A stretch of 64,000 nt of DNA from Planctomycetota bacterium. Lineage in GTDB: Bacteria; Planctomycetota; UBA8108; UBA1146. A program made the position numbers and the translations under genes. The stretch lies in assembly GCA_016776905.1 (NCBI GenBank), contig JADHSM010000004.1:62001-126000 (forward strand), given 5' to 3'. The notes below the pieces were generated by a model. It saw nothing but the letters and a program-made list of their open reading frames with translations, had not been told where the DNA came from and searched no databases. Shown here one piece after another: positions 3,519 to 4,956 of the stretch. Numbering within the stretch: the first letter of the stretch is position 1; each line of letters opens with the position of its first letter.

Positions 3519-3595
3519 GCGCTCGTAGCTCAACTGGATAGAGCATCGGATTTCTAATCCGAAGGTTCCAGGTTCGAGTCCTGGCGGGCGTACCA
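3519..3595 (+). tRNA. tRNA-Arg(TCT), CCA encoded
   Basis: Cloverleaf: acceptor GCGCTCG/CGGGCGT, anticodon loop TTTCTAA, T-arm CCAGG-TTCGAGT-CCTGG, 3' ACCA. Confidence 0.95.
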
Positions 3596-3690
3596 TTTTT
3601 TATACTCGTTGCTTCCCCCAATGTTTTCCACCATTCTGATTCTCAAGAGCCCATTCGTTGACGGGTCATCTTGAGGAAGGTGAGTGTGAT

Positions 3691-4956
3691 ATGTGGATAA
3701 CAACAATTCTTCTATTGGTTACAGCATGTGTACAGACTGATACTCCGAAGGAAGCTCCCCAGTTCGAAAAACCGGTTCGTATTGAATCAAACGGGATTCC
3801 TATCGATGTGACCGTCGGGCATGCCGCTCCTTATATGCATGACTTTGATGGCGATGGAATAACCGATCTACTCGTCGGTGAATATGGTGATGTCGATTTC
3901 CCTGTCGAAAGATTGCCGAAAAGAATTCGAGATGAATCCGATAGTAAGGGAGCCTTCTCCCAGGGGAGGCTGCGGATATATAAAAACCATGGTTCTGATA
4001 CCCAGCCTAAATTTAATGGATTCGAATATCTCCGAGCTGGAGCTGGATTCGCATCCATACCTTCAACCTGATGCATTTGTTTTTGTCCGCAGTTTGTGGA
4101 CTACGACAATGACGGAGATCTAGATATATTGAGCGGATCCTATACAGGAGAGATTTATTACTTTGAGTGTCAAGATGACGGAAAATTTTTGCAGGGTAAA
4201 TGTCTGGTTGATAAAGATAACGTCGATCTCAAAGCACAGTCATATTCGATCACTGTAGAAGCATGGGATTTCGATGCTGATGGCGATCTCGATTTGATTC
4301 TGGGTACTCGCGTCTCTTCCGTAGAGTTATTCGAAAATATCGGAACCCGAGAAGCTCCTATCTACGCGGCTAAATCGAAGAAACTCAAAACCCAAGGCGG
4401 AAAACCGATAAAAGGTAGCAATGCCCATAGGGCCGATTGGGATGGTGACGGTGTACTGGATCTTGTTTTGGGCGCTGAATATGGGGGAGTGCACTGGTAT
4501 CGGAATGTCGGGAGTACTGACAAACCGTTATACGGAGATCGTCAGGTCATAGTGGAGCAGCCTGAGTTCAAGCAAAGAACTGAGGCTGAAGGCCCTGAGT
4601 TTTCAGGCTCTCGAAGCAAGGTGTTCGTGACGGATTGGGATAAGGATGGGATGAACGATCTCTTGGTAGGAGACGTTCAATGGCTCAACTACACTCTACC
4701 GCCATTAACTGCGGAAGAGGAATCTGAAAAAATGAAGTTACAACCAGAGTATGAAAAATTAGATAAGGTTCTGGAAGAACTGAATGATGAAAAGATCCGT
4801 TACCAGCGAAAAAAGGTTGAGGTTCCAGAAGAAGTGAACAGTAGGTATGACGCCGCTTATGAAGCTTGGCTTCCCGTGTATCGCAGGATGTCAAAGTTTG
4901 ATCGAGAGAAGTCTAAAACTCATGGTTGGGTATGGCTCTACAGGCAAATCCCCTAG
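3691..4956 (+). CDS. VCBS/FG-GAP repeat lipoprotein with in-frame UGA at 4069-4071 (codon 127): putative selenoprotein
   Basis: ORFs 3658..4071 and 4096..4956 are in the same frame, separated only by one TGA. Signal/lipobox MWITTILLLVTAC with upstream gaggaagg; repeats HDFDGDGITDLLVG, VDYDNDGDLDILSGSYTGEIYYF, DFDADGDLDLILG, DWDGDGVLDLVLG lie on both sides of the UGA. Confidence 0.75.
4072..4113 (+). promoter_or_regulatory. Putative bacterial SECIS element directly downstream of in-frame UGA
   Basis: Upper stem 85-91 GUCCGCA / 95-101 UGUGGAC (7 bp, one G-U), apical loop GUU starting 20 nt after the UGA. Lower stem CAU(U)UGU 4074-4080 / ACAAUG 4106-4111, separated by a UUUU/UACG internal loop. 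Confidence 0.6.

Follow-up and report, generated by a model that had tools for sequence, protein, structure and literature searches.

Comparative evidence for an FG-GAP beta-propeller selenoprotein family with a vicinal Sec–Cys pair in Planctomycetota

Characterised selenoproteins are mostly thioredoxin-like in fold, and to our knowledge the functions of bacterial FG-GAP propellers are mostly unknown. A 2026 review of prokaryotic selenoproteins, which cites two Haft papers among the sources of its table, catalogues 119 families and subfamilies (PMC13188914); FG-GAP, VCBS or propeller selenoproteins are absent from both its text and its table. The deep-Sep paper does not mention FG-GAP, and full-text literature searches found no such selenoprotein; a listing in the supplementary tables of the Porphyra planctomycete paper (PMC4807772) is not excluded. 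Vicinal cysteines are known from quinoprotein alcohol dehydrogenases of the XoxF/MxaF type, in which an adjacent-cysteine disulfide ring has been implicated in electron transfer (PMC8546591). Here we analyse a 64,000-nt stretch of planctomycete DNA (the window) and conclude that it probably encodes an uncatalogued exported FG-GAP beta-propeller selenoprotein, in which a UGA codon is decoded as Sec and residues U127 and C128 form a redox-active pair.

On the forward strand of the window, ORFs 3658–4071 and 4096–4956 lie in one frame, and the TGA at 4069–4071 is the sole break between them, as the original prediction had stated. Read-through from the ATG at 3691 yields a 421-aa product (proposed coding sequence 3691–4956, 421 codons) with U at residue 127, in the context ...FASIPST-U-CICFCPQFVDYDNDGDLDIL... 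The next codon (4072–4074) encodes Cys128, the second half of the vicinal Sec–Cys pair, which is invariant in the alignments. The window protein has no match in NCBIfam 20.0 at E ≤ 1 and so matches none of the selenoprotein families modelled there, on which ground we reject assignment to any of them; the models matched by the other aligned members all lack a selenoprotein name, the best match being FusH (2e-7). Directly upstream, on the same strand, lies a tRNA-Arg(TCT) gene (3519–3595), which is context and no part of the protein; a read-through LN[WR]IEHRISNPKVPGSSPGG is shared in relatives. tRNA-derived sequence also precedes the gene in several relatives from two genera (L010–L019).

The read-through protein matches Pfam FG-GAP_3 above the cut-off (9e-19), and FG-GAP repeats flank the UGA on both sides, as had been predicted. 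An AlphaFold model built with nine homologues as input (pLDDT 89.7, pTM 0.83) consists mostly of beta structure, interrupted towards the C terminus by a long helical insertion, and places U127 in a loop between predicted strands 123–125 and 132–136. Together, the FG-GAP repeats, the confident mainly-beta model and the generic propeller fold matches meet the criteria for an FG-GAP beta-propeller. A fold search for an enzyme analogue returned generic propellers only, with low TM-score. The N terminus (3691–3765, forward strand) is hydrophobic and signal-peptide-like and carries a lipobox-like VTAC, an assignment made from the sequence and an alignment judged by eye, with no signal-peptide program. 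By the same inspection, both the window protein and the relative at 93% identity have the lipobox-like Cys, whereas several aligned homologues show signal-like N termini without a visible Cys of this kind. The label 'lipoprotein' in the original prediction rests on this lipobox-like motif and is to be read with that qualification.

We propose that the UGA at 4069–4071 would be decoded by SelB and Sec-tRNA(Sec) under the guidance of a hairpin at 4085–4101, and that the protein would be exported, with the U127–C128 pair sitting in a loop before a propeller strand. After export, itself inferred, Sec and Cys may form a redox-active selenenylsulfide/selenol–thiol pair. This pair could be the catalytic centre of a thiol-type oxidoreductase in the cell envelope, which a thioredoxin- or TlpA-like partner, again by inference, would recharge. 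That the cell-envelope chemistry is of the thiol redox type is inferred from the invariant Sec–Cys pair together with a natural fusion, and there is no direct test of an oxidoreductase role. In the fusion, a homologue from genome G035 (L028:55-2265) is joined to a Redoxin/AhpC-TSA-like, thioredoxin-like domain that has its own in-frame UGA, in the motif FWUGPC. It is known from one genome only: a search by motif for redox-domain fusions yielded this single real case, and the other long upstream frames resembled unrelated open frame. As for recurrent neighbours, beyond the family itself and antisense frames over the gene, no cluster was common to more than seven loci.

Alternatively, the protein may be a selenoprotein whose Sec–Cys pair is no redox catalyst: in an exported binding propeller, the two neighbouring residues would bind a metal or metalloid or be structural. 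Most FG-GAP propellers act in binding, and the solved relatives found by sequence profile are CRTAC1, the nearest (E 2e-8; PDB 9etn and others), ITFG2 and integrin alpha chains. A 2Fe-2S protein and a MerB-like lyase are among the Sec families known to have a CU motif (PMC13188914), and besides the Sec–Cys pair no other catalytic residue is conspicuous among the invariant alignment columns. However, the G035 fusion, in which the thioredoxin-like domain also contains a UGA in frame, fits thiol-redox chemistry, and functionally known selenoproteins are mostly redox enzymes (PMC13188914). We consider a purely binding or structural pair unlikely, though not so unlikely that it can be neglected, and favour the redox-active pair. 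A wider version of the redox-active reading would make these proteins widespread exported propeller selenoenzymes of Planctomycetota and Verrucomicrobiota, with a vicinal Sec–Cys selenenylsulfide redox centre in a non-thioredoxin fold, recharged by Sec-thioredoxin partners and analogous to the quinoprotein vicinal disulfide; we give this wider version slightly less than even odds.

Both the redox-active and the binding-pair readings take the protein to be a selenoprotein. That the UGA is decoded as Sec, with Cys replacing Sec in lineages without the machinery, we regard as close to certain on comparative grounds, in the absence of protein-level or selenium-labelling evidence. Among 40 relatives searched, the same in-frame TGA was present in homologues down to about 26–38% identity to the window protein, and it also occurs in a separate assembly, where identity is 93%. 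When 392 Planctomycetota genomes were searched with a profile, 148 gave matches at E ≤ 1e-10; the site residue was checked for a subset only, and many of the remaining matches were generic FG-GAP proteins, left out of the site-residue counts. Within the checked subset, 77 genomes have homologues with UGA at the site and seven have Cys there, and the next position is Cys in all checked UGA and Cys forms of the phylum. In the phylum, the homologues checked had neither TAA nor TAG at the site, nor any codon other than UGA or Cys. Two further UGA forms (L217 and L218), each with UGA followed by Cys and each from a genome with tRNA-Sec, were found among 338 genomes from the phylum to which a Limisphaerales (Verrucomicrobiota) relative belongs. 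Judged from these alignments, conservation of a UGA at the identical site far exceeds chance. Because divergent assemblies share the TGA, namely the separate 93%-identity assembly and dozens of divergent genomes, a sequencing error or a strain-specific or recent nonsense mutation is excluded.

Homologues thus carry an aligned UGA or Cys at position 127, save for one distant Gly. The 'Gly/Cys–Cys' pair named in the original prediction corresponds to a Cys–Cys minority and a single Gly–Cys outlier, whereas most members are Sec–Cys. The outlier, L219, is a distant homologue of another phylum with a 4513-aa open frame and Gly–Cys at the Sec–Cys position. Several family copies can lie close together: one locus (L130) holds a tandem pair with UGA in both copies, and a Rikenellaceae MAG (L140:1-8055) holds three nearby copies of the Cys–Cys form. 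A genome-wide scan for relatives with generic FG-GAP patterns returned mostly unrelated FG-GAP proteins and gave three Sec loci together with the Rikenellaceae Cys loci.

The Sec machinery on which the original prediction depended is present in the source genome, a 2.92-Mb draft in 26 contigs. Matches to selA (522 bits), selB (366 bits) and selD (323 bits) all exceed the curated NCBIfam cut-offs, and a tRNA-Sec with anticodon TCA, also above its curated cut-off, was identified (65 bits; ARAGORN SeC(tca)). The tRNA-Sec gene adjoins selD with selA beside it, and selB lies elsewhere on that same contig. By reading of the frame, selD (L009:14370-15433) itself carries an apparent in-frame UGA (SCAGUAAK), which precedes the ATG of the ORF list, and so serves as an internal control.

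Across the phylum, SelB was detected in 70 of the 77 Sec-form genomes versus 235 of all 392 (Fisher p = 5e-11; genomes not independent), and five of the seven Sec-form genomes without SelB have a tRNA-Sec scoring above 68 bits. Sec-form genome G228 (77% complete) has no convincing match to SelB or tRNA-Sec, and in G153 (82% complete), also Sec-form, the best tRNA-Sec score, 49.5 bits, is below the 51 bits that tRNA-Ser obtains with the same model; absence in at least these two genomes fits draft incompleteness, which remains unproven. Conversely, none of six Cys forms from one genus, in genomes 99–100% complete, is accompanied by SelB or tRNA-Sec, and the Rikenellaceae Cys-form genome has no SelB above the cut-off and no tRNA-Sec match. 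The expectation for a bacterial selenoprotein that Cys forms occur in machinery-free genomes is therefore met, with the exception of G206, which has the Cys form yet retains SelB and tRNA-Sec. In a FastTree phylogeny (branch support left out), Cys forms of the phylum fall inside Sec clades in two places, a nesting that suggests, from sequence relationships, that Sec-to-Cys replacement happened at least twice.

Bacterial SECIS (bSECIS) elements have been modelled as hairpins with an apical loop of 3–9 nt and an upper stem of 4–16 bp, a G within the first two loop positions that is usually followed by G or U, a UGA-to-loop distance of 16–37 nt, and a minimum free energy (MFE) of at most −7.5 kcal/mol (PMC13188914, Fig. 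2A). The hairpin GUCCGC-AGUUU-GUGGAC at 4085–4101 on the forward strand (6-bp stem, loop 4091–4095; −8.0 kcal/mol, z −4.3) meets all four criteria, so that the putative SECIS near the UGA for which the original prediction proposed a search was found. Drawn in this way the stem has 6 bp and the loop 5 nt, with a spacing of 19 nt from the UGA; the single-sequence MFE structure adds an A-U pair, giving 7 bp, 3 nt and a spacing of 20 nt. The loop in the window is AGUUU, and its G column is G in 76 of 78 sequences. Stem cells are paired in 94.5% of cases across 76 distinct sequences, four pairs vary on both sides, and sliding the partner strand lowers pairing to 31–46%. The covariation score was reached by none of 500 shuffles (uncorrected for shared ancestry) and is clearest at columns 21/29, with A-U in 53 sequences and G-C in 16. 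Codon usage in the stem is strongly skewed: Val is GTG in 59 of 59 cases versus a 40% background (binomial p = 2e-24), and Pro is CCA in 44 of 65 versus 6%, both uncorrected for shared ancestry. From this codon usage, the hairpin constrains synonymous codon choice. In all seven Cys forms of the phylum, at least two of the six stem pairs are broken. An Rfam search of the region gave nothing above the gathering score except tRNA. Because the compared relatives share ancestry, the p-values for association and for codon usage treat the data as more independent than they are.

As evidence on the inserted residue is comparative only, the UGA might in principle be read through with another residue, such as Trp, or might serve stop-codon regulation that yields short and long forms. 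However, Cys takes its place in checked homologues of the phylum, mostly in lineages without Sec machinery, the downstream hairpin both fits the bacterial SECIS model and covaries, and TGA is an ordinary stop elsewhere in the window; we give this explanation very little credence. Two genes or a pseudogene, with the TGA as a genuine stop or a nonsense mutation of recent origin, would agree with table 11, which gives two ORFs and by which automatic annotation would split the gene, but is scarcely credible given the same TGA in homologues of 77 genomes and in two more from another phylum, neither TAA nor TAG being seen at the site, repeats continuous across the codon, a Cys codon in relatives, and purifying selection downstream of the UGA as upstream (dN/dS 0.07–0.24, three close pairs), and UGA conservation together with selection on both sides rules out two separate genes. 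The selenoprotein reading that had been proposed is supported by the machinery, the aligned UGA and Cys codons and the covarying SECIS, and none of the refutations named in advance was found.

If Sec decoding and a redox-active pair are correct, the locus would represent a large uncatalogued selenoprotein family present in about one-fifth of the sampled genomes of the phylum (77/392, checked by sequence), and would place Sec in a fold where it has not been catalogued before. Standard annotation would then cut part of the exported proteome of the phylum at Sec codons, and FG-GAP propellers would contain a testable redox site. Cys forms that lie within groups of Sec forms would be natural Sec-to-Cys replacement experiments.

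Nothing in the decoding departs from ordinary Sec insertion in bacteria; the novelty lies in the protein family, in its fold and in its U–C site. Like catalogued bSECIS selenoproteins (PMC13188914), the family has a UGA for Sec, a hairpin just after the UGA and Cys homologues in machinery-free genomes, whereas the catalogued motifs include CU and GxUC and no U-C-[IVT] propeller motif. The TonB-dependent receptors of the FCYXU type and the MtrB/PioB-like outer-membrane selenoproteins (PMC13188914) are likewise exported, mainly beta proteins of the cell envelope, but they are outer-membrane barrels with another Sec motif or none listed, according to the review table and general knowledge. CRTAC1- and integrin-alpha-like FG-GAP propellers, to which the sequence profile is closest among solved structures, have no known Sec–Cys motif and are binding proteins, not known redox enzymes. 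Quinoprotein alcohol dehydrogenases share an exported beta-propeller with an adjacent-Cys pair, a functional analogy only, with no homology shown; in contrast to the family described here, they are eight-bladed, depend on PQQ with a lanthanide or Ca cofactor, and carry Cys–Cys in place of Sec–Cys.
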